This document shows positions 9,354 to 20,482 of a stretch of 44,698 bases of DNA, piece by piece. A program made the translations under genes and the position numbers. The notes beneath the pieces are model-generated. The model made no database searches, had not been told where the DNA came from, and saw only the letters and a list, made by a program, of their open reading frames with translations. Position 1 is the first letter of the stretch; each line of letters begins with the position of its first letter. The DNA comes from Candidatus Mediterraneibacter excrementavium. GTDB lineage: Bacteria; Bacillota; Clostridia; Lachnospirales; Lachnospiraceae. Location: positions 1 to 44,698 of the forward strand of contig DWVL01000093.1 of NCBI GenBank assembly GCA_019120275.1, written 5' to 3'.

Positions 9354-10316
9354 TCAATCATCATCATTGTCATACGGGCTGCCTCCGCCATCGTCATCAC
9401 TGTCATAATTACTTTCATAAGAACTGTTCCCGCCGCTGTCATCGTTGCTTTCGTAAGGACTGTTCCCGCCGCTGTCATCATTGCTTTCATAAGGACTGTC
9501 ACCGCTGTCAGCTTCATACCCCGAATCATTATCGGGCTGTACCGACGGCCTGGGAACGGTCTGTACAGGCTGCGGATCAGCCGGTACTCCGTAATCTGTT
9601 ATCCCGTCGTCTTCTTCATATGGTGAATCCGCATCCTCCTGTTGCTGAGGGATCGGCACAGTCACAGTCTGCGGCTCATCCAGCACTTTCTTCTCTTCGG
9701 TATCATCTTCTGTATTTTCCGGCCGGACAAGCGGACCGACGGTCAGTTCAACCGTAATGTCCTGCTCCGCCAGATAACGATTCAATTCTTCGAGAAGTTC
9801 TGTCTCGGTCCTTTCTGCCCATTTGCCGCTCCGTGCATCCACTGTGATCGCAATCTGTCCTCCGTCGGAAAGATATTCCTGGTCAATGGCGCGCCCGGCG
9901 AGTTCATCGACAACGGTCTCTTTGTCTTTTCCCTTATATTCATAATCCCTGACCAGCGCACGTCCATCTGCATTTTCTCCTTCAACATCCAGTACTCTTC
10001 CGGAACGGCTCAGAGAGATCTCCACTTCCGGATTAATCTGCATATGCACGCTTCCATATTCTGTATAAATGTACTGATATTCATATATACCGAATATTCC
10101 CGCACAGACAGATGCGGCAATCCCTGCGGCCATGCGGATCACATAGGCCCGGCGCTTCTGTCTGTCCTGGGGATACACGATCGGGATGACTTTATCCGTG
10201 ATATCGCCCGTCTCATATCCGGTATTGGCAGCTTTGATAAAACGTCCCTCATTATCCAGGACAGTCACATAAGCACTGTGTGTTTCCACTACCAGATAAG
10301 TCGTTTCTTTTTTCAT
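9354..10316 (-). CDS. rsgI: RsgI-family anti-sigma factor with a repetitive acidic tail
   Basis: 320 aa. The small N-terminal domain (1-50) matches the RsgI cytoplasmic anti-SigI domain (YLVVETHSAYVTVLDNEGRF). One membrane helix lies at about 57-78. The outer juxtamembrane domain (about 85-195) has INPEVEISLSRSGRVL, including Asn95-Pro96, the position where RsgI proteins are reported to cleave themselves. The C-terminal ~120 residues are low-complexity, Asp/Ser/Tyr/Gly/Pro-rich, ending in 12-residue repeats of the form SPYESNDDSGGN. Many clostridial RsgI proteins carry sugar-binding domains at this place; none is visible here. The gene lies 17 bp downstream of sigI with its own ACGGAG site. 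It should hold SigI inactive until an envelope signal arrives. Confidence 0.88.
   Translation of the reverse strand: MKKETTYLVVETHSAYVTVLDNEGRFIKAANTGYETGDITDKVIPIVYPQDRQKRRAYVIRMAAGIAASVCAGIFGIYEYQYIYTEYGSVHMQINPEVEISLSRSGRVLDVEGENADGRALVRDYEYKGKDKETVVDELAGRAIDQEYLSDGGQIAITVDARSGKWAERTETELLEELNRYLAEQDITVELTVGPLVRPENTEDDTEEKKVLDEPQTVTVPIPQQQEDADSPYEEDDGITDYGVPADPQPVQTVPRPSVQPDNDSGYEADSGDSPYESNDDSGGNSPYESNDDSGGNSSYESNYDSDDDGGGSPYDNDDD
9417..9500 (-). repeat. 36-bp tandem repeats encoding the RsgI tail
   Basis: Two and a fraction near-identical 36-bp units, each coding for 12 residues of the pattern SPYESNDDSGGN. The number of units is likely to vary between strains. Confidence 0.7.
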
Positions 10317-10333: not shown

Positions 10334-11071
10334 TTATGAATCAGTATCTTTACTGTTTCCGGAAAGATGATATAAATGCCCCCGTATGATCTCGTATCCG
10401 TTCGTAAATGCAAGAAGCACAGCTACCAGATATTTCCGGTGCCGTTCCATCGTCTTTTTGTCCGTTTTGGAGATTTCCGCCAGACCGACTATCGGAAGTT
10501 TTTTTGTCCGGAGAAGTTCGTCAAGATACTCCGGATGTTCCCTCGCCGCAGCCAGCACCCGGCCGCACGCTTTGAATGTACGCTCCTGGCGCGGACAGTT
10601 ATCAGCCACATCTGAAAATGTGAGGCCGAATTTCTGAAGCTTCTTCTCAAATTCCAGAATCTCCTCTTTTGTGGCGCTCTGCCGGTGGCTCTTTTCAATA
10701 TCATTTTCCGGATGTTCCAGCTGATCGATCTTCATCGTATCGCCTTCATCCTCCTGGACAGGTTCATGCAGAGAGGTCACCTTCGCATGTTTTCTTTCTT
10801 TGCGGTAATAATCGATCAGCCGGCTTCTGATCCCTCTGGACGCATAGGAAAGAAAAGCTCCCCGGTTCTTTTCATATCCAAGGATTGCTTCGTAAAAGGC
10901 AAGGAGAACAATGCTGAATTCTTCATCCTGTCCTTCTACCGGGGCACGGTGAAGATATTTTGCTGTCTCGGCGCGTATGAAGCCCATATACTGCCTGATC
11001 AGGCGATCCGCAGCTTCAGCGTCTGTCTTCGCCGCATATACCTGTTCCACAAGTTCATGAACACCGTTCAT
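10334..11071 (-). CDS. sigI: RNA polymerase sigma factor SigI
   Basis: About 245 aa. The sigma region 2-like part (DEEFSIVLLAFYEAILGY, FLSYASRGIRSRLIDYYRKERKH) and the unusual C-terminal domain ending in a helix-turn-helix (LAEISKTDKKTMERHRKYLVAVLLAFTNGYEIIRGHL) are diagnostic of SigI. ATG 11071 is chosen for its AGGAGG site 8-9 bp upstream; the frame is open for 22 more codons but would run into the promoter. It is the first gene of sigI-rsgI. The upstream region carries CGACCCCG and TTCCGTAT blocks, which also occur in front of the divergent lipoprotein gene. Autoregulation is therefore likely. Confidence 0.92.
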   Translation of the reverse strand: MNGVHELVEQVYAAKTDAEAADRLIRQYMGFIRAETAKYLHRAPVEGQDEEFSIVLLAFYEAILGYEKNRGAFLSYASRGIRSRLIDYYRKERKHAKVTSLHEPVQEDEGDTMKIDQLEHPENDIEKSHRQSATKEEILEFEKKLQKFGLTFSDVADNCPRQERTFKACGRVLAAAREHPEYLDELLRTKKLPIVGLAEISKTDKKTMERHRKYLVAVLLAFTNGYEIIRGHLYHLSGNSKDTDS

Positions 11072-11098: not shown

Positions 11099-11129
11099 AT
11101 ACGGAACCGAAAACTTAATTTCGGGGTCG
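11099..11129 (-). promoter_or_regulatory. Proposed SigI promoter for sigI-rsgI
   Basis: On the minus strand: CGACCCCG (11129-11122), 15 bases, TTCCGTAT (11106-11099), ending 28 bp before the sigI ATG. The same blocks and spacing occur on the plus strand at 11277-11307. The C-rich -35 and CGTA-type -10 resemble SigI-dependent promoters described in other Firmicutes. Confidence 0.7.
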
Positions 11130-11276
11130 CAGGGCAAAAATGTGTTTTCAGTATATTTAGTTTGTATAAAATACAGGTTAAATATATGTAAACTATACGT
11201 AAATACCGGGACGTAAGCTCTGTTACTACATTATAATGATAAAAATACCAGGAAATTTTTTCAAATTTTTTTATAC

Positions 11277-11307
11277 CGACCCCGTTTTCCATATTTTGCT
11301 TCCGTAT
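11277..11307 (+). promoter_or_regulatory. Proposed SigI promoter for the lipoprotein operon
   Basis: CGACCCCG (11277-11284), 15 bases, TTCCGTAT (11300-11307), 50 bp before the lipoprotein ATG. It is identical in both blocks and in spacing to the sigI promoter on the other strand, while the spacers themselves differ. That argues for conserved promoter elements rather than a recent duplication. Confidence 0.7.
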
Positions 11308-11357: not shown

Positions 11358-12338
11358 ATGACAAAGAAAAAATTAATGGCAACTCTTGCAACAGTATTAT
11401 CACTTTCTCTTTTGGGCGGACTCATGGGATGCGCTCCAAGAGAACAGGCAGCTGAACTTCCTCAGCAGACAACCGCAGCCGTCAAGACTCAGAAAGAAGC
11501 TCTTACCGGCGTGATATCCATCAAAATAAATCCTGAGATTGCAGTCTTCTATGACGAGAAGGGCATCGTCACTTCTGTCGAAGGCCGCAACGACGACGGC
11601 AAAAAAGTGATCACCGATTACACCGGTTTCACGGGCAAGGAGTGCCGCACAGTCATCAGTGAACTGATCGCCAGGATCAATGAAGCAGGATATTTTGCAG
11701 AAGAAATAGAGGGAGAGCCCCATCAGATCACCCTTGAAATCGAAAAAGGATCCGTTCTTCCAACCGACAATTTCTTAAGCGCCATTGTAGCCGAGATCCA
11801 GAAATATACAAGTGCGGAAAAGATCAATACCCCCGTGGCAATAGACGGAGAAAGCACTTACGGCTGGACTGATTACGGCGACACAGATTACGGTCCGGAC
11901 AACGACGGCATTACTGACTACGGCGACACAGACTACGGCACCACTGGCGACGGAGTAACGGATTACGATGATGCAGCACCTGCTGTATCCGGCAATACAG
12001 GTGCAGCCGACAGCGGTAACTCTGACTATGGAAATACGGATTATGGCTCAGGCAGCGACGGTGTGACCGATTATGATAACGGACAATCCAATTATGATGA
12101 TGGACAGTCCAATTACGACGACGGGCAGTCCAATTATGACGATGGGCAATCTGATTACAATGCGCCTCAGTCAACACCGGCTCCGGCTCCCGAGCCGACC
12201 CCGGCTCCGCAGCCGTCCGCTCCTGTACAGTCAGGTACGACCGACTATGGCGATTCCGGTTATGACGACGGCAACTCCGGCTACGGCGACAGCGATTCCG
12301 GTTATGATGACGATGGGGATTCCGGTTATGATGATTGA
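11358..12338 (+). CDS. Lipoprotein with RsgI-like juxtamembrane domain and Asp/Tyr-rich repeat tail
   Basis: 326 aa. A lipoprotein signal peptide ends in the lipobox LMGC (Cys25). Residues about 50-155 are homologous by eye to the outer domain of the neighbouring RsgI: GVISIKINPEIAVFYDEKGIVTSVEGRNDDGKK aligns with the RsgI segment around Asn95-Pro96, and Asn58-Pro59 is kept. The cytoplasmic anti-sigma domain and membrane helix are absent. The rest is low-complexity: DYGDTDYG-type units, three exact SNYDDGQ heptads, a Pro/Ala linker and a final GYDD-rich stretch. AAAGGAG precedes the ATG. It is the first gene of a four-gene operon behind a SigI-like promoter. It should sit on the outer membrane face, tethered by lipid. 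Its function is not known; a structural surface protein or a modulator of RsgI are both possible. Confidence 0.8.
   Translation: MTKKKLMATLATVLSLSLLGGLMGCAPREQAAELPQQTTAAVKTQKEALTGVISIKINPEIAVFYDEKGIVTSVEGRNDDGKKVITDYTGFTGKECRTVISELIARINEAGYFAEEIEGEPHQITLEIEKGSVLPTDNFLSAIVAEIQKYTSAEKINTPVAIDGESTYGWTDYGDTDYGPDNDGITDYGDTDYGTTGDGVTDYDDAAPAVSGNTGAADSGNSDYGNTDYGSGSDGVTDYDNGQSNYDDGQSNYDDGQSNYDDGQSDYNAPQSTPAPAPEPTPAPQPSAPVQSGTTDYGDSGYDDGNSGYGDSDSGYDDDGDSGYDD
12087..12149 (+). repeat. 21-bp tandem repeats encoding SNYDDGQ heptads
   Basis: Three successive 21-bp units at 12087, 12108 and 12129 encode the identical heptad SNYDDGQ, with synonymous differences between units; a fourth, diverged unit (SDYNAPQ) follows. 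Synonymous variation suggests the peptide repeat is under selection. Confidence 0.8.
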
Positions 12339-13023
12339 ACAGTCTCCTGTTTCTTTCCGGCATGAACTAAAACATCTGATTACCCCTGCCGAAGACAGGA
12401 TCTTAACCGGCAGACTCGGCAGGCTGTTTCACCGGGACAGTCATGCCGGTCCCGGCGGGGTATATACAGTAAACAGTCTTTATTTTGACACGCCGGATGA
12501 CCGGGCTCTGACAGAGAAAATATCCGGGGCGGACCGGCGGGAAAAATTCCGGATCCGGTATTACGGTGACACGCCGGACTTTCTCCGGCTTGAAAAAAAG
12601 ATTAAAAAAGGCGGGCTTTGCTCAAAACGCAGCGCCCGTCTTACTTATAAACAGACAGAAGATCTGCTGGAAGGGAAAATGGAATTTCTTCTGGAAAGCG
12701 AAAATGGACTGCTGACAGAACTCTATGCGAAAATGAAAGGAGAACTGCTCCGTCCCCGAAGCATTGTACGCTACGAAAGAGAGGCTTATATATTTGCCCC
12801 CGGCAATGTCCGTGTCACACTGGACAGACATCTGAGCACCTGTACCTCCTGCCTTTCTTTTCTGATTCCAGGCACTCCCCGCATCGCACCGGAACCGGGA
12901 AACACCGTCCTGGAGGTAAAGTATGACGCGTTTCTCCCGGACATTGTCCGGATGGCCGTGCAGGTGCCCGACAGAAAAACCGGCGCATATTCAAAATATG
13001 CCGTCTGCAGACGATTCGACTGA
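12331..13023 (+). CDS. VTC-domain (polyphosphate polymerase-like) protein
   Basis: About 230 aa with a single VTC domain, the tunnel-shaped triphosphate-tunnel fold that in yeast Vtc4 makes polyphosphate from ATP. Signature segments in order: FRHELKHLI, VNSLYFDTPDD, KFRIRYYG, RLEKKIKKGG, VRYEREAY and, near the end, VLEVKYD with the metal-binding Glu. It starts at ATG 12331 (or the adjacent ATG 12328), overlapping the end of the lipoprotein gene by 8-11 bp in another frame, so the two are probably translationally coupled. The reading frame is open further upstream, but that part only shadows the lipoprotein repeats. Such proteins frequently neighbour DUF4956 and CotH genes, as here. Polyphosphate synthesis is a family inference, not shown. 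Confidence 0.85.
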   Translation: MIEQSPVSFRHELKHLITPAEDRILTGRLGRLFHRDSHAGPGGVYTVNSLYFDTPDDRALTEKISGADRREKFRIRYYGDTPDFLRLEKKIKKGGLCSKRSARLTYKQTEDLLEGKMEFLLESENGLLTELYAKMKGELLRPRSIVRYEREAYIFAPGNVRVTLDRHLSTCTSCLSFLIPGTPRIAPEPGNTVLEVKYDAFLPDIVRMAVQVPDRKTGAYSKYAVCRRFD

Positions 13024-13062: not shown

Positions 13063-13734
13063 ATGACATTTCAGGATATTTTCAAATCAGGATTTCTGGA
13101 GAATGTAAATGCGATCTCGGTGCTGGATATGGCGGTTGCCCTCGTCCTGTCTTTTGCCCTTGGACTGTTTATATTTTACATCTATAAAAAGAGCTACTGC
13201 GGGCTGATGTACTCTGCCGCTTTCGGGGCCACGCTCGTCGCCCTGACCCTGATCACCACGCTCCTGATCCTTGCCGTAACGAGCAACGTGGTGCTCTCTC
13301 TCGGAATGGTCGGCGCCCTGTCGATCGTGCGTTTCCGGACCGCGATCAAAGAGCCCATGGATATCGCATTCCTGTTCTGGAGCATCGCCGCAGGCATCGT
13401 CCTCGCCGCAGGCTTCATTCCGCTGGCGGTTTTCGGCAGCATATTCATCGGCCTGGTCCTCCTTATCTTCTCCGGAAGGAAAAATATCGAGCGCCCGTAT
13501 ATCCTTGTCATCCACTGTGATACGGATGAAAAAGAAAAGGAGGCGGAAGCCTACATAAAAAATCAGGTGAGCGCGCTTTCTCTGAAGAGTAAATCCGTCT
13601 CCCCCGGATGTATCGAACTGAACTACGAGGTCCGGTTTAAAGAAGGGGAATCCGCATTCGTCAACACGCTGTCACAGATCGACGGCGTCAGCAATGTTAT
13701 TCTCGTTTCATACAATGGAGACTATATGGGGTAA
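13063..13734 (+). CDS. DUF4956 membrane protein
   Basis: 223 aa. Three to four membrane helices occupy residues about 20-145, with the conserved DUF4956 stretch GMVGALSIVRFRTAIKEPMDIAFLFWSIAAGI in the middle. A soluble ferredoxin-fold-like C-terminal domain (about 150-223) follows. The biochemical role is unknown. It is regularly found next to VTC-domain and CotH genes and may form the membrane part of that system. AAGGTGG lies 7 bp before the ATG. It starts 39 bp after the VTC gene and ends 5 bp before the CotH gene. Confidence 0.88.
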   Translation: MTFQDIFKSGFLENVNAISVLDMAVALVLSFALGLFIFYIYKKSYCGLMYSAAFGATLVALTLITTLLILAVTSNVVLSLGMVGALSIVRFRTAIKEPMDIAFLFWSIAAGIVLAAGFIPLAVFGSIFIGLVLLIFSGRKNIERPYILVIHCDTDEKEKEAEAYIKNQVSALSLKSKSVSPGCIELNYEVRFKEGESAFVNTLSQIDGVSNVILVSYNGDYMG

Positions 13735-13739
13735 CCGAT

Positions 13740-15155
13740 ATGCTGAAAGACCGAAAGATTGATTTTATATGCATTGCAGCCATCCTCGCGGCCTGTATCA
13801 TGGCAGCGCTGTTCCTTTCAGGAGAAAAGATCGGGATCACGCCCCTTTCATCGGAACCCGGCTATTCGTCCCATCTCTTTGACGACAGCCATGTCCATCA
13901 TATCGATATACAGACGGACGACTGGGATGCATTCCTTGAAACAGCATCGGAAGAAGAATACACAGAATGTAATCTTTCCATAGATGGGGAAACTTTCTCT
14001 TCTGTCGGCCTGCGGGCCAAAGGGAACAATTCCCTGCGTCTTGTAGAGGAATACGGACTTGACAGATACAGCCTGAAAATCGAATTCGATCATTTTCAGG
14101 ACGGGAATACCTATTACGGGCTTGACAAGTTCTCTCTTGACTCGTCCTTCCAGGATAATTCCTACATGAAAAACTATATGACATATGACATGATGGATTT
14201 TATGGGGGTTCCCGCACCACTCTGCAGTTATGTCAACGTCACGGTAAACGGGGAAGACTGGGGACTTTTCCTGGCCGTCGAAGAGCCGGAAGAGGCGTTT
14301 GCACGCCGGAATTTCGGCGCTGACCATGGCATGCTATACAAGCCGGATTATCGTTCTCTCGAAGATGAGAACCGGGACGTCGCACTCCAGTATACGACGG
14401 ACGACCCGGCTGATTACGATAATATCTTCCGTCACGCCAGATTCGACTGCAGCGATTCCGACATGCAGCGGGTGATCCGTGCGCTGAAAGCCCTGTCAGA
14501 TCCCGACAATGCCGACCTGAACTCCGCTGTAAATGTAGACGAGGTCCTCCGCTACTTTACCGTACAGGTTTTCGTCGTCAATCTGGACAGCTATCTCGGA
14601 AAGACCGGACACAATTACTTCCTTTATGAAGAGAACGGCGTCCTCAGCATCCTTCCGTGGGATTACAACCTGGCGTTTGCCACATATTCTCTCGGCATGC
14701 CGGATCCGGTCAACGACGCGCAGCTCTATGTGAATTATCCCATAGATACGCCGGCTTCCGGGGAAATCATGCAGAACCGTCCGCTCTATCACAATCTGAT
14801 GAAGCAGGATGAATATTTTTCACAGTACCACGGATATTTTGATTTCTTTATCAGGGAATATTTTGAAAGTGGATATTTCGAAGAAAAAACAGCAGGGACG
14901 ATCCGGATGATCGCCCCTTATGTAAAAAACGACGCCACTGCTTTCTGCTCCTATGCAGACTTCCTGACAGGCGCAAAAACTTTTACAAAATTCTGTCTGC
15001 TGCGCTCCGAGAGCGTGCGTTGCCAGCTGGACGGTACGATTCCGTCAACGATCGCCGGACAGGAAGCAGACATAGACAGCCGGATCGACGCATCCGGGAT
15101 ATGGCTTCCGGATATGGGTGAGATCGAAGACCTGCGGATCAGCTCTTCTTTATAA
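13740..15155 (+). CDS. CotH-family protein kinase, membrane-anchored
   Basis: 471 aa. An N-terminal signal anchor (about residues 9-27) places the body outside the membrane. CotH-kinase features follow: RAKGNNSL (about 98-105), KIEFD, DKFSLDSSFQDNSYMKNYMTYDMMDFMGVPAP, the GLFLAVEEPEE segment (about 178-188), and the ILPWDYNLAF motif (about 303-312) holding the metal-binding Asp. CotH of Bacillus phosphorylates Ser residues of repetitive spore-coat proteins; vegetative relatives act on other surface proteins. Here the obvious candidate substrate is the Ser/Tyr/Asp-repeat lipoprotein encoded first in the same operon, but that is inference. It is last in the operon and its 3' end overlaps the convergent zinc-ribbon gene by 17 bp. 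Confidence 0.88.
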   Translation: MLKDRKIDFICIAAILAACIMAALFLSGEKIGITPLSSEPGYSSHLFDDSHVHHIDIQTDDWDAFLETASEEEYTECNLSIDGETFSSVGLRAKGNNSLRLVEEYGLDRYSLKIEFDHFQDGNTYYGLDKFSLDSSFQDNSYMKNYMTYDMMDFMGVPAPLCSYVNVTVNGEDWGLFLAVEEPEEAFARRNFGADHGMLYKPDYRSLEDENRDVALQYTTDDPADYDNIFRHARFDCSDSDMQRVIRALKALSDPDNADLNSAVNVDEVLRYFTVQVFVVNLDSYLGKTGHNYFLYEENGVLSILPWDYNLAFATYSLGMPDPVNDAQLYVNYPIDTPASGEIMQNRPLYHNLMKQDEYFSQYHGYFDFFIREYFESGYFEEKTAGTIRMIAPYVKNDATAFCSYADFLTGAKTFTKFCLLRSESVRCQLDGTIPSTIAGQEADIDSRIDASGIWLPDMGEIEDLRISSSL

Positions 15156-16104: not shown

Positions 16105-17202
16105 TTATTTTCCTTCCGTACGCTTATTCCCGAATCCGATAATAAAACATACGGCTATGCAGATTATAACCGCGATTTTTCCGTTCAGCGGCACGCTGCC
16201 TGATACGATCTCCTGAGTCTCTGCATTCACTGCCGTGGCACTCGCCGCCAGTCCGAGATTATGCGCCAGCGCAGCGCCGAGAAGCATGCCGAACACTGTA
16301 ACGGCCGAATCCGACGATCCCTGTCCGGCCAGGATCAGCTGCCGGAGCGGGCATCCGCCTGCAAGCACAGCGGCAAATCCCACCGCATACATGCCAAGGA
16401 TGTTCCACAGATGCTCCGAATGTGCGATCACGCCCGGCGTATCGAATGCCGGGACAAAGTTCCCGGACGCAATATTATAGACCAGCATGACTACAAAGAA
16501 GCTTCCGATGATCGTCAGCAGATCGAAATTTCTCATCAGGATCACATCCCGGATGCTTCCCGCAAAACACATCCTCGATTTCTGCGCAAACGCGCCGAAG
16601 ACCAGGCCGCCGGCCAGCGACAGCAGGACCGGCGCATGCATACTTCCCGGTCCGCTCTGGCTTGCCTTTAACAGTGTGGTAGCCAGTGAAAGGATCAGGA
16701 CTCCGAGCAGCAGGACCGAAAGCACGGCACCGCTCATGCGGCCGGCGAGATGTGCCCTACCCAGGCTGAACCCTTTCTTTAATGCAAATACGCCTGTCCC
16801 CACGCCCAGGACAAATCCAATAAGCGCCACCCATGCATTCAGGTCGCCTGCGGACATCCGGATGATCATCCGGAGCGGGCATCCCAGAAATACCAGTGAG
16901 CCGATTGCCAGGATCATACCGAGCACAAATCTGGTCATCGGCGATGATCCCGCTGTGGAACGGTATTCCTTTGTCACAGCGGATATAAGAAAGGCGCCAA
17001 GTACAAGACCGATGATCTCCGGTCTTACATACTGTACTGTTTCCGTGGAATGGAGCCCCAGCGCGCCGGCTGTATCCCGGATAAAGCAGGCGATACAGAA
17101 AGCCATATTGGCCGGATTGCCGAAATAGGCAAGCGCAGCCGCCACGATCCCGCAGACTGCGCCCGCAAGGGCAAGCTTTTTCTTAGAATCTGATAAGTTC
17201 AT
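16105..17202 (-). CDS. yedE: YedE-family putative selenium transporter
   Basis: 365 aa with about ten membrane helices built as two repeats. Each repeat has a short Cys motif: FCIACFIRD (about 34-42) and GCPLRMIIR (about 107-115) in the first, SRMCFAGSIRD (about 208-218) and GGCPLRQLILAGQG (about 284-297) in the second. This is the YeeE/YedE thiosulfate-type channel fold, and the form next to selD, yedF and tusA is annotated as a putative selenium transporter. It lies 19 bp after the aminotransferase V gene and should bring a selenium or sulfur species into the cell. Confidence 0.88.
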   Translation of the reverse strand: MNLSDSKKKLALAGAVCGIVAAALAYFGNPANMAFCIACFIRDTAGALGLHSTETVQYVRPEIIGLVLGAFLISAVTKEYRSTAGSSPMTRFVLGMILAIGSLVFLGCPLRMIIRMSAGDLNAWVALIGFVLGVGTGVFALKKGFSLGRAHLAGRMSGAVLSVLLLGVLILSLATTLLKASQSGPGSMHAPVLLSLAGGLVFGAFAQKSRMCFAGSIRDVILMRNFDLLTIIGSFFVVMLVYNIASGNFVPAFDTPGVIAHSEHLWNILGMYAVGFAAVLAGGCPLRQLILAGQGSSDSAVTVFGMLLGAALAHNLGLAASATAVNAETQEIVSGSVPLNGKIAVIICIAVCFIIGFGNKRTEGK

Positions 17203-17221
17203 CTTTATTTCCTCCTGTCTC

Positions 17222-18358
17222 TCATTCCTCTGCCAGTTCTTTCACCGCACGGACTGATACATCAACCTCTTCTTCCGTATTGAAGTGGGAGAAACTGAAC
17301 CTCACAGCCCCCTGGTCCACCGTTCCAAGCGCCTGGTGCATGAGCGGCGCGCAATGGGCGCCCGGCCTCGTTACGATACCATAGTGCACGTTCAGTTCAT
17401 CGCTCACTTCCGAAGAATCGTAATCCCCGATATTGAAGGAAACGATCGCTGCACGGTTATTTGTGCTGAAATCTCCGTACACCTTTACACCCGGGATCCC
17501 GGATATACCCTGATAAAACCGCTGCATCAGCGCCAGTTCCCACTCCCGGATCGTATCAGGTCCGGTTTCCATGATATAGGAAACCGCCGCGCCAAGCCCC
17601 GCGATCCCGTGCCCGTTCAGCGTCCCCGCTTCCAGGGCGGTCGGCATCTGTGCCGGATGGTGCGTATTATAGGTATCAATGCCGCTTCCCCCGGAGAGCA
17701 ATGGCCGGATCTCCACACCGGGGCGCACATACATGCCGCCGGTCCCCTGTGGTCCCAGCAGACCCTTATGTCCGGTAAAGCACAGCACATCGATCCCCAG
17801 CTTCTGTACATCGATCTCCCACACGCCGGCGGTCTGCGATGCATCCACGATAAGCAGAAGACCGTGCCGCTCTGCGATCGCATGCACCCGTTCCAGATCG
17901 ATCATATTTCCGGTCAGATTGGAGGCGTGGGTACAGACGATCATCTTCGTCTCCGTGCGAATGGCCCGCTCCATCTCCTCATAGGAAATGTTCCCTTTCT
18001 CATCACACCCGAGGATCGTCAGGGCTGTTCCCTGTTCCCGGCACTCATACAGAGGCCGGAGCACGGAATTATGCTCCAATACAGTTGTGATCACATGGTC
18101 TCCGGGATCGCACAGCCCTTTTATGGCGATATTCAGGCTCTCTGTAGAGTTTGCCGTAAACACGATCCTGGAAGGCGATTCCGCATGGAACAATCCTGCC
18201 AGCTTCTCCCGTGTCCCGTATATGACACGCGATGCATCCAGGGCCGGATCCGACGCCCCGCGTCCTGCGTTCCCCATCGTATCGAGCGCCGCAAGCACCG
18301 CTTCTTTTACCTGCACGGGCTTGCGCAGTGTAGTCGCGGCATTGTCCATATAGATCAT
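17222..18358 (-). CDS. Aminotransferase class V (cysteine desulfurase / selenocysteine lyase-like)
   Basis: 378 aa PLP enzyme that removes sulfur from cysteine or selenium from selenocysteine. The start MIYMDNAATT is typical. The PLP Lys lies in FTGHKGLLGPQGTGG (about residues 195-209) and a C-terminal active Cys in RPGAHCAPLMHQ (about 338). This matches the type linked to selenium genes. ATG 18358 has a GGAGGTG site; an upstream in-frame extension to 18445 runs through the promoter. It opens the downstream part of the selenium block (csd-like, yedE, tusA, DUF3343) with its own promoter behind the lysR terminator. Confidence 0.9.
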   Translation of the reverse strand: MIYMDNAATTLRKPVQVKEAVLAALDTMGNAGRGASDPALDASRVIYGTREKLAGLFHAESPSRIVFTANSTESLNIAIKGLCDPGDHVITTVLEHNSVLRPLYECREQGTALTILGCDEKGNISYEEMERAIRTETKMIVCTHASNLTGNMIDLERVHAIAERHGLLLIVDASQTAGVWEIDVQKLGIDVLCFTGHKGLLGPQGTGGMYVRPGVEIRPLLSGGSGIDTYNTHHPAQMPTALEAGTLNGHGIAGLGAAVSYIMETGPDTIREWELALMQRFYQGISGIPGVKVYGDFSTNNRAAIVSFNIGDYDSSEVSDELNVHYGIVTRPGAHCAPLMHQALGTVDQGAVRFSFSHFNTEEEVDVSVRAVKELAEE

Positions 18359-18405
18359 ACTTTTCACCTCCGGCCGTCTGGCATACAGAATCATTATCCT
18401 ATTTA

Positions 18406-18435
18406 AGTATAGATTTATCTCCCGTTTCCGTCTAA
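18406..18435 (-). promoter_or_regulatory. Promoter of the desulfurase-yedE-tusA-DUF3343 operon
   Basis: On the minus strand TTAGAC (18435-18430), an 18-bp spacer and TATACT (18411-18406). It lies between the lysR terminator and the desulfurase start. Confidence 0.5.
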
Positions 18436-18450
18436 TCGAAAACAAAAATA

Positions 18451-18493
18451 AGGAGCCGCCGCCTATAGATTTTTTCTATAAGCGTTGGCTCCT
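18451..18493 (-). terminator. Terminator after the lysR gene
   Basis: Arms AGGAGCC/GGCTCCT and CTATAG/CTATAa with a six-A/T loop form a long stem right after the lysR stop, followed on the minus strand by TTATTTTTGTTTT. It separates lysR from the desulfurase operon. Confidence 0.75.
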
Positions 18494-18498
18494 GTTTT

Positions 18499-19401
18499 TC
18501 AGTTTTCCGGATACATCTGCTGTACCGTTTTTATGAACTTTTCTGCCGCCGGAAGGCTAGGATATCCCGCATCATAGACCATATTGATATTCCTTGTGCC
18601 GCCCGCCTTTCCCAGTGGGAATGCCAGCAGTTTTCCGCTTTCGATCTCTTCCTTTGCCGCAAGATGCGAGAGGATCGTCACGCCCATTCCACCGGCTGCC
18701 GACCGCTTGATCGCCTCCTGGTTCTCCATTACCGCCGCCACATTCAGTCCGGACGGATCGATGCCGTTCTCACCGAGCATGCGGAACGCTTCTTTTCTCG
18801 TTCCCGATCCTTCTTCCCTGAGAATGACCGGCTCATCCAGGATCCAGGAAATGTCATCCTCCCCCTGTCTCCGGCAGAACCGCTCTTCCGGGGGCGCCAG
18901 GATCACCAGTTCATCTTCATAGAACGGTACATACGTGCAGTTCCCGCGTTCAAGCACGGTTCCGGTAAATCCTACATCCGCCTTATGCGAAAGGATCATC
19001 TCCACCACGCCGCTGCTGTCCGTCTCAAAAAGCTTCAGCTGTTCCTTCGGGTATTCTCTGCAGAACCGGGCCATAATGTCCGGCAGAAGATACTGCGCCG
19101 GGATTGTGGATGCCGCAATGCGGAGCACGCTGCCAGCATACTTTTCTTCCAGACCGAACCGCCTGCGGATCTTCTGTTCCAGCTCCAGCATCTGCCCGGC
19201 ATAGGCATACAGTTCCTTTCCCGATTCGGTAAGCGAAACTTCTTTTGTGTTCCGCACCAGCAGACAGGTGGAAAGTTCCCGTTCCAGTGAAGCGATATGC
19301 GCGCTGACCGTGGGCTGGGTCAGATAGAGCTGTTTTGCGGCTTTTGAAAAACTCGTTGTCTCCGCCACGCGGACGAAGGCTTCCAGCTGTTTCAGGTTCA
19401 T
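18499..19401 (-). CDS. LysR-family regulator associated with selenium metabolism
   Basis: About 300 aa. An N-terminal winged helix (MNLKQLEAFVRVAETTSFSKAAKQLYLTQPTVSAHI, residues 1-36) and a periplasmic-binding-like effector domain (about 90-295) are clear. Its ATG at 19401 overlaps the selD TGA in an ATGA arrangement, which fixes the start and indicates translational coupling. It probably senses a selenium or sulfur species and controls the two flanking operons, but no operator can be singled out by eye. Confidence 0.88.
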   Translation of the reverse strand: MNLKQLEAFVRVAETTSFSKAAKQLYLTQPTVSAHIASLERELSTCLLVRNTKEVSLTESGKELYAYAGQMLELEQKIRRRFGLEEKYAGSVLRIAASTIPAQYLLPDIMARFCREYPKEQLKLFETDSSGVVEMILSHKADVGFTGTVLERGNCTYVPFYEDELVILAPPEERFCRRQGEDDISWILDEPVILREEGSGTRKEAFRMLGENGIDPSGLNVAAVMENQEAIKRSAAGGMGVTILSHLAAKEEIESGKLLAFPLGKAGGTRNINMVYDAGYPSLPAAEKFIKTVQQMYPEN

Positions 19402-20462
19402 CTCCCATCCACCTTTCTCAGAAGCCGGATGCACGGATGGTCTGCATTGCTCTCCACAACTCTTCCCACGATTGATACTTCTGTCCCGAGATCTGCTTTT
19501 GCCAGCGCCCGGAGCATCCCGTCCGCTTCTTGTTCCGGCACGGCAAACAACAGGCCGCCGGACGTCTGGGGATCGCTTAACAGATCCACATACACCTCGT
19601 CCACACCGCCGATGTCCAACATGCCGCTCACATGTCGCTGGTTGCGGTACGCGCCGCCCGGGATCAGCCCCATTTCCGCATATTCTTTTGCTCCGGTCAT
19701 AAATGCGATGCCGTCCACACCGATCTCAATCACCGCCCGGCTTGCCTCCGCCATTTCCGAACAGTGTCCGAGAAGTCCGAAGCCGGTCACATCGGTGCAG
19801 GCATGGACCGTAAAGTCCTGCGCCGTCTCCTTCGCCTTTTTGTTCAGCGTGGTCATCACGCGGATTGCTTCCTGCTCCGCTTCTTCCGAAGCCATCTCCG
19901 CTTTGACCGCCGTATTGATGATCCCGCTTCCAAGCTGTTTCGTAAGGATCAGGATATCCCCTTCCTGACAGCCGAAATTCTTATATATATGATCCGGATG
20001 TACCAGCCCGGTCACAGACAGACCGTACTTCGGCACATCATCCTGAATGGAATGTCCGCCCACCAGGACCGCGCCGGCTTCTCTCACCTTGTCCGCGCCG
20101 CCCCGCAGGATCTCTCCCAGGACATCCGGATCCACATTTTCCGGAAAACAGACAATGTTCAGCGCGATTTTCGGCTCGCCGCCCATGGCGTATACGTCGC
20201 TCAGCGCGTTCGTCGCCGCTACCTGTCCGAATGTATACGGGTCGTCCACCACCGGCGTAAAAAAGTCCAGGGTCTGGATCACCGCCGTATCATCACTGAT
20301 CTTATACACCGCCGCGTCATCCGATGTCTCGAACCCCACAAGCAGATCCGGATCGCTGAACTTCGGCAGCCGCCCCAGCACCTTTGAAAGGGTGTCCGGC
20401 CCGATCTTGGCCGCGCAGCCCCCATGTTTTGCGAACCGGGTCAGTTTTATCTTTTCCTGCAT
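19398..20462 (-). CDS. selD: Selenide, water dikinase (selenophosphate synthase)
   Basis: Makes selenophosphate, the active selenium donor, from selenide and ATP. About 354 aa. The N-terminal catalytic motif reads GGCAAK (Cys16, Lys19), so this is a cysteine, not a selenocysteine, form. The ATP-site motifs follow: TSDDAAVY, TLDFFTPVVDDPYTFGQVAATNALSDVYAMGG and the VGGHSIQD and CTDVTGFGLLGH stretches. ATG 20462 is preceded by GGAGG; an ATG at 20474 is a weaker alternative. It lies 20 bp after yedF and overlaps lysR by 4 bp. Neither selA, selB nor a selC-like tRNA is in the window, so the use of selenophosphate (Sec, selenouridine or a selenium cofactor) cannot be decided here. Confidence 0.95.
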   Translation of the reverse strand: MQEKIKLTRFAKHGGCAAKIGPDTLSKVLGRLPKFSDPDLLVGFETSDDAAVYKISDDTAVIQTLDFFTPVVDDPYTFGQVAATNALSDVYAMGGEPKIALNIVCFPENVDPDVLGEILRGGADKVREAGAVLVGGHSIQDDVPKYGLSVTGLVHPDHIYKNFGCQEGDILILTKQLGSGIINTAVKAEMASEEAEQEAIRVMTTLNKKAKETAQDFTVHACTDVTGFGLLGHCSEMAEASRAVIEIGVDGIAFMTGAKEYAEMGLIPGGAYRNQRHVSGMLDIGGVDEVYVDLLSDPQTSGGLLFAVPEQEADGMLRALAKADLGTEVSIVGRVVESNADHPCIRLLRKVDGR

Positions 20463-20482
20463 GTTCTCCTCCATCTTCCCGT

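Follow-up and report, generated by a model that had tools for sequence, protein, structure and literature searches.

In the window, the whole 44,698-nucleotide stretch of Candidatus Mediterraneibacter excrementavium DNA analysed here, the genes for a sigma-I factor and its anti-sigma factor diverge from an operon headed by a lipoprotein gene, and two identical pairs of sequence blocks face outward in the DNA between them. The locus raises two questions: whether the blocks are promoters that the neighbouring SigI would read, and what a lipoprotein resembling the outer domain of an anti-sigma factor might do under such control. The features to which the argument refers are as follows.

9354..10316, minus strand: rsgI, anti-sigma-I factor (Pfam RsgI_M and RsgI_N; alignment of 15)
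10334..11071, minus strand: sigI, sigma-I factor (NCBIfam SigI model; PDB 8i24 match)
11099..11129, minus strand: predicted SigI-type promoter of sigI, A-tract form CCCCGAAAT (exact pattern, congener conservation, held-out relatives)
11165..11203, minus strand: four TTWACA-type half-sites at an 11-bp period, putatively of the Pho/WalR response-regulator type (periodicity, relatives)
11277..11307, plus strand: predicted SigI-type promoter of the lipoprotein operon, T-tract form CCCCGTTTT (exact pattern, congener conservation, held-out relatives)
11358..12338, plus strand: lipoprotein with a stand-alone RsgI_M domain, lipobox LMGC and NPE site (Pfam RsgI_M 55.8 bits, cut-off 25.3)
12328..13023, plus strand: VTC-domain protein of the polyphosphate polymerase type (Pfam VTC 115 bits)
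13063..13734, plus strand: DUF4956 membrane protein (Pfam 42.8 bits, cut-off 30.6)
13740..15155, plus strand: CotH-type secreted kinase (Pfam CotH 203 bits)

Two SigI-type sites beside sigI

The arrangement CGACCCCG-N15-TTCCGTAT occurs exactly twice in the window, at 11099-11129 on the minus strand and at 11277-11307 on the plus strand. The search used the exact pattern CGACCCCGN{15}TTCCGTAT, for which 100 dinucleotide shuffles of the window gave a mean of 0.00 matches. In the whole assembly (2,164,332 bases) the same two are the only exact matches, and the reversed-pattern control gave 0; at 86% completeness, the assembly may lack additional SigI targets. The initial annotation had described identical, outward-facing blocks at an exact spacing of 15 bases, and the search recovers both of them; we likewise see no relation by eye between the two 15-base spacers, as it had stated. 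Of the distances that it gave, the 50 bases from block end to the lipoprotein start codon (ATG at 11358) stand, and the 28 bases to that of sigI (ATG at 11071) become 27 on our count.

Both sites carry ACCCC at the -35 position, with G as the sixth base in place of the C of the Bacillales consensus, and CGTA at the -10 position, in agreement with CGWA. They resemble the published SigI consensus, which an excerpt of PMC4711584 gives as ACCCCC--AA-15N-CGAA for Bacillales and C-----AAA-13/14N-CGWA for C. thermocellum. Counted from the first C, the consensus gap in that excerpt is 22-23 bases in C. thermocellum and 24 in Bacillales; the corresponding gap in the congeneric sites described below is 23-24 bases, with 19 bases between ACCCC and CGTA in all but 2 of the 30 sites, which have 20.

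The Pfam and NCBIfam models used here confirm the gene calls of the initial annotation, the lipoprotein-VTC-DUF4956-CotH set by Pfam and sigI-rsgI by both. The NCBIfam SigI model matches the sigma factor at E 4.7e-50, with scores below both equivalog cut-offs (170.4 of 306 bits for NF006178; 164.2 of 185 for TIGR02895), so that by these models the protein is a divergent SigI and no equivalog. Its similarity to the family runs over the full length and includes the C-terminal domain, as seen in the alignment to SigI6 of PDB 8i24 (E 1.4e-21; query residues 17-232 on SigI6 residues 31-242). The RsgI protein comprises a cytoplasmic N-terminal part, one transmembrane helix identified by eye, an RsgI_M ectodomain with an INPE sequence and an acidic tail rich in S, G, Y and D; Pfam assigns it RsgI_M at 83.1 bits (cut-off 25.3), and RsgI_N at 15.5 bits, below the cut-off of 25. 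Downstream of the operon, at 16105-20474 on the minus strand, adjoining genes encode a YedE-type sulphur transporter, a class V aminotransferase, a LysR regulator and an AIR-synthase-like (SelD-like) protein, a group that we take to be a selenium/sulphur cluster, the selenium part being our presumption.

From these features and the comparisons that follow, we consider it probable, at roughly 85%, that the blocks are promoters read by the SigI encoded beside them and driving both sigI-rsgI and the lipoprotein operon.

Conservation and gene content among relatives

An orthologous SigI (71-100% identity) was found in 15 of the 58 genomes of the genus, and all 15 carry both blocks, before sigI and before the lipoprotein gene. 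The regular expression used for the congeners demanded CCCC and CGTA, which makes their invariance partly a matter of construction; a position weight matrix (PWM) test is free of this bias. When the 15 congeneric intergenic regions are aligned, each of the two sigI blocks has a mean pairwise column identity of 0.88, and the lipoprotein blocks reach 0.89 and 0.81. The two spacers stand at 0.51 and 0.59, and the stretch separating the promoters at 0.52.

The matrix was trained on the 30 sites of the 15 congeners, and the best site was sought in the 350 bases upstream of each gene. Applied to 24 held-out loci, which represent other genera as well as another family and include near-identical ones (L090, L092 and L093, for example), it gave every testable gene a site of at least 13.2, collinear cassettes included: 23 of 23 for sigI and 20 of 20 for the lipoprotein. 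The weakest held-out sites score 13.2 bits (L094 sigI and L103 lipoprotein) and 16.2 bits (L098 lipoprotein). Outside both upstream regions, five matches exceed 13 in 265 kb on both strands; by our reading, one in L083 and two in L086 precede a lipoprotein gene lost at a contig end, and the remaining two, at 18.4 and 15.3, overlap the range of the weakest held-out sites. The distance from best site to gene is 50-62 bases for sigI (23/23), and for the lipoprotein 73-111 bases in 19 of 20 loci and 154 in one. A further set of 11 loci, made up of 10 new genera and G089, which repeats the Sellimonas locus L077, scores above 13 before sigI in 10 of 11 cases and before the lipoprotein gene in 8 of 10 testable ones, the other three sites reaching 12.1, 11.9 and 10.1. 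In nine of the ten further loci with both genes, the two sites rank first and second within the locus; in L186 a background match of 14.5 outranks the sigI site at 12.1. The initial annotation had named conservation of the blocks among relatives as a check on its proposal, and they are present at both genes in the 15 congeners and in held-out genera. Tandem SigI-type sites some 70-170 bases apart precede the lipoprotein gene in L082, L084, L085, L087, L088, L090-L093, L095-L097 and L099; this second site, seen in many Oscillospiraceae loci, is usually weaker and lies further upstream.

A genome-wide promoter profile, run over the 58 genomes with stricter filters and trained partly on the same sites, lists both sites of all 15 SigI-bearing genomes, at E 5.6e-9 to 0.043. 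In the window genome the two sites have E values of 6.5e-8 and 2.5e-5, the next among the matches listed being at 0.34. The sigI site of G002 (E 0.043) is weaker than an unrelated match in G029 (0.023), which is the best other match listed in the 15 SigI-bearing genomes, and with these filters the matches listed for the 58 genomes hold no convincing extra SigI target in the genus. Sites with E below 0.01 also occur in three genomes that lack SigI (best E 0.007-0.009, among the matches listed). Two of these sites (L150, L151) overlap an FMN riboswitch before a gene that is RibU-like by eye, a reason for care in any promoter scan that uses this motif; the third (L152) is an unexplained match.

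The genes are distributed together as well. The lipoprotein domain occurs in the same 15 of 58 genus genomes as SigI, and CotH gives a strong match in 14 of these 15, the fifteenth being cut by a contig end, with weak matches only in two other genomes. A search of 250 genera in the window's family gave a strong lipoprotein match (at least 127 bits) in 11 and this SigI clade (at least 263 bits) in 12; all 11 are among the 12, and in the twelfth the contig ends beside rsgI. Distant SigI types (82-134 bits) came with no strong lipoprotein match in the 250 genera. The pairing of SigI with the lipoprotein thus recurs in related gut bacteria. Many of the named carriers, L066-L103, are presumably poultry-gut isolates or MAGs, going by record titles or strain series, a bias that could reflect sampling or a habitat link.

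Gene order varies among the 39 named loci, of which those from Mediterraneibacter largely repeat the genus genomes of the 58-genome set. Eighteen are divergent, 17 with six genes and one contig-ended before CotH, and 11 are collinear with all six genes in the order sigI-rsgI-lipoprotein-VTC-DUF4956-CotH. L103 has the lipoprotein and CotH only, L082 and L098 have the lipoprotein only, six loci are cut by contig ends and L104 is a non-orthologue; L192 likewise has only CotH of the VTC-DUF4956-CotH set. Collinear loci have a SigI-type site of their own before the lipoprotein gene, and the coupling of sigI to that gene survives REARRANGEMENT between divergent and collinear order. In a SigI tree of 37 rows, built without L099 and L104, the divergent loci lie on one side of one branch (support 98/96), so that one rearrangement suffices. 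The genome of Pseudoflavonifractor capillosus An827 holds, besides a first cassette, a second one of six genes (L208; G308:C189:62000-74000), in which the two SigI-type promoters and the array upstream are likewise present.

Comparative evidence thus supports the initial prediction that SigI controls itself and the lipoprotein-VTC-DUF4956-CotH genes, except that the last three would not be a constant target. The lipoprotein gene of two further genera (L185, L187) has no VTC-DUF4956-CotH genes in the 6 kb downstream; together with L082 and L098 this makes four loci without the set in the 4-6 kb downstream, which points to the lipoprotein as the constant target.

The two promoters differ in the stretch after CCCCG, which in the window reads GAAAT at sigI and GTTTT at the lipoprotein gene. 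Described SigI promoters carry an A-tract where the window lipoprotein promoter carries a T-tract; according to an excerpt of PMC6056542, the A-tract is essential by mutagenesis for C. thermocellum SigI3, and ECF promoters may carry T-tracts. The named set and the window together divide without exception, with an A-rich stretch in 38 of 38 sigI promoters and a T-rich one in 35 of 35 lipoprotein promoters. This, together with the CGTA -10 elements common to some ECF types, would suit a lipoprotein promoter read by a different sigma factor, for instance an ECF factor, and merely like the sigI promoter in appearance. We regard such a reading as improbable, since the -35 ACCCC and the spacing equal those before sigI, and since the lipoprotein and SigI co-occur genome by genome. 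In the further loci, a T-tract precedes sigI itself in 7 of 11 (read by eye), so the rule of an A-tract for sigI and a T-tract for the lipoprotein, which held in the named set, had to be given up; these loci argue that the same SigI reads both forms.

The array between the two sites

Between the two promoters, on the sigI strand, we found a four-fold array, TTTACG-N5-TTTACA-N5-TTAACC-N5-TTTATA. Its period test over the 15 congeners gave a summed score of 304, compared with a shuffle maximum of 264, with period 11 as the only peak, and the array is significant singly in 13 of the 15 loci (0.02 or less). In collinear cassettes it stands before sigI only, in a single orientation on the sigI strand, with none before the lipoprotein gene; the array belongs to sigI. 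Its form in Oscillospiraceae is TTTACA-N5-TTGACA-N5-TTGACA, and a scan of 10 genomes allowing up to 2 mismatches returned 9 with the sequence seen before sigI, one extra match before a second sigI and two other matches (reversed control, 1). No pst operon was found with this pattern in the 10 genomes, the neighbouring genes being visible for 2 of the 3 extra matches.

Boxes before PstS-like genes of Mediterraneibacter have a similar form, TTTACA-N5-TTAACA in the same orientation to the gene (13 distinct), as collected by a pattern that demanded this sequence and beside PstS-like genes that score below the TIGR02136 cut-off. A half-site matrix trained on these pst boxes ranks its best intergenic position first in 11 of the 15 loci, in 8 of them on the array. 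Genome-wide, a TTWAYA/TTWACA pattern showed no excess in 15 genomes (18 matches, 22 for the reversed control); Pfam assigned 10 of the ORFs flanking its matches to PHO4, choline-binding and unrelated genes. Two other candidates in this region were set aside: a single WalR box, whose consensus is TGTWAH-N5-TGTWAH, scored weakly region by region, and the four-fold 11-bp array fits the signal better; a sigma-A -10-like TATAAT/TATACT near the array is partly conserved by eye and absent from the promoter scan. Periodicity, orientation, linkage to sigI and likeness to the PstS boxes together point to a putative PhoP/WalR-type operator for sigI, which probably sets basal sigI expression.

Identical blocks flanking a central array, each with the nearly invariant 19- or 20-base spacing given above (28/30 and 2/30), could also be repressor or activator binding sites set symmetrically around a common control region, with no promoter function. 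To this we give very little weight: each copy keeps a promoter orientation and a fixed distance to its start codon, collinear cassettes keep separate copies before each gene, and the blocks resemble the SigI consensus excerpted from PMC4711584.

The RsgI_M lipoprotein, a proposed circuit and known systems

Taking the blocks as SigI promoters, the second question concerns the lipoprotein. It shares 26% identity with its own RsgI over the RsgI_M (SEAL) domain, profile-profile comparison of the two (hhalign) gives a probability of 98.5% (E 2.7e-15), and its profile matches a solved RsgI domain, PDB 8t9n, at E 7.7e-8. The bond at which RsgI cleaves itself is Asn-Pro, and this residue pair is present without exception in the aligned rows, 31 for the lipoprotein and 30 for RsgI. 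Pfam finds RsgI_M only: RsgI_N and the transmembrane helix are absent and a lipobox signal stands in their place, so the lipoprotein is an RsgI_M protein and no anti-sigma factor. By sequence, it is a stand-alone paralogue of the RsgI ectodomain; the initial annotation mentions neither this relationship nor the central array.

The tails of the two proteins are also related. That of the lipoprotein carries the acidic repeats DTDYG..DGVTDY / DSGYDD, and the longest stretch that it has in common with the RsgI tail is longer than in composition shuffles in 28 of the 34 loci (p<0.05), 18 of them at p<0.01, and falls short of significance in 6; the common stretch reaches 20 residues, and some such stretches are poly-Asp or Pro/Ala low-complexity runs. 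The full repeat occurs in 32 of 34 lipoproteins and 10 of 34 RsgI proteins, the half repeat in 32 and 20, respectively.

We propose the following circuit. The membrane protein RsgI would hold SigI until a signal acting on its outer domain frees the sigma factor. This step is modelled on the SigI-RsgI literature, in which, according to an excerpt of PMC12203970, RsgI ectodomains self-cleave, and self-cleavage, intramembrane cleavage and ClpXP lead to SigI release. Freed SigI would transcribe sigI-rsgI from one promoter and, from the other, the operon led by a lipoprotein copy of the RsgI outer domain. Only two strong sites were found in the window genome, and the module therefore looks like a small closed circuit. 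The lipoprotein might then compete for the input of RsgI, or the co-transcribed CotH kinase might modify lipoprotein and RsgI alike; either would damp the response once enough lipoprotein had been made. One or other of these is the role that we infer and favour; an excerpt of PMC7821199 reports that CotH of B. subtilis phosphorylates the spore-coat protein CotB on its serine-rich repeats. The specific form of a titrating decoy, in which lipoprotein and RsgI compete for an input, possibly CotH phosphorylation of common S/T/Y-acidic repeats, and the response both gauges and limits its own surface output, we put forward tentatively and with more doubt than belief.

SigI might instead drive the operon for a lipoprotein that is a structural or enzyme-associated wall protein and no decoy, its RsgI_M domain acting as a tether or cleaving itself to release the acidic tail, perhaps as a phosphate or calcium carrier for VTC/CotH products. 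The conserved Asn-Pro and lipobox would suit such a protein, as would the usual linkage to VTC-DUF4956-CotH and the confinement of the acidic repeat, as queried, to the lipoprotein within the genus. Weighing against it are the four loci in which the lipoprotein lies beside sigI-rsgI with no VTC-DUF4956-CotH nearby and the RsgI tails that carry full or half repeats in the 10 and 20 of 34 loci counted above, both of which point to a link between the lipoprotein and signalling. We consider the wall-protein role a serious possibility at somewhat under even odds.

SigI autoregulation and SigI-type promoters are already known. Our searches of the open-licence PMC literature turned up neither a lipoprotein with an RsgI ectodomain nor VTC-DUF4956-CotH genes controlled by SigI, nor sensor-mimic feedback for RsgI-type anti-sigma factors. 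SigI of gut Lachnospiraceae and Oscillospiraceae would gain a concrete and apparently very small regulon, and if the lipoprotein is a sensor mimic, the feedback design would be new to the RsgI-type anti-sigma literature searched.

One of the closest parallels is the SigI-RsgI/WalR system of B. subtilis, with promoters at sigI, lytE and mreBH, which in the excerpts of PMC7478892, PMC7299342 and PMC4711584 shares SigI autoregulation (predicted here), the ACCCC -35 and the CGWA -10 with the module described here. Response-regulator sites upstream of sigI, putative ones in the window, are a further likeness (excerpts of PMC7478892 and PMC7299342), and WalR acts on sigI there (excerpt of PMC7478892). 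The targets excerpted for B. subtilis are wall hydrolase and elongation genes, whereas one operon was found here besides sigI-rsgI, and the excerpted descriptions of that system mention no RsgI-ectodomain lipoprotein. The SigI/RsgI paralogues of the C. thermocellum cellulosome are alike in SigI family, in the autoproteolytic periplasmic domain of RsgI, in CGWA promoters and in the A-tract, shared with the window sigI promoter, and the SigI6 target cseP has a CotH domain (excerpts of PMC4711584 and PMC12203970). As excerpted, RsgI there has sensor C-terminal domains, such as carbohydrate-binding modules, and many targets, whereas tails of the window type consist of acidic repeats, and what the module would produce is a lipoprotein resembling the sensor. 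Pho box and WalR box arrays share with the array described here direct repeats at an 11-bp period; unlike them, the Oscillospiraceae array occurs at sigI and in only two other places in 10 genomes.

Lastly, the Pel loci of Gram-positive bacteria have contiguous genes of the CotH, polyphosphate polymerase and DUF4956 types (excerpts of PMC7112168 and PMC12345266), where we equate the MgtC/ACT membrane protein of PMC12345266 with DUF4956. Synteny of CotH, polyphosphate polymerase and MgtC/ACT was not found outside the Pel locus in the analyses excerpted from PMC12345266, whereas the gene set of the window lies beside sigI and away from pel. Of 25 module-bearing genomes, two have a PelG; one is the window's own, where it lies on another contig (G000:C70:6097-7470, minus strand), so the species may have a Pel locus and the module may be linked to Pel. 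Read by SigI as proposed, the little-understood VTC-DUF4956-CotH set would here be tied to envelope signalling outside Pel loci.
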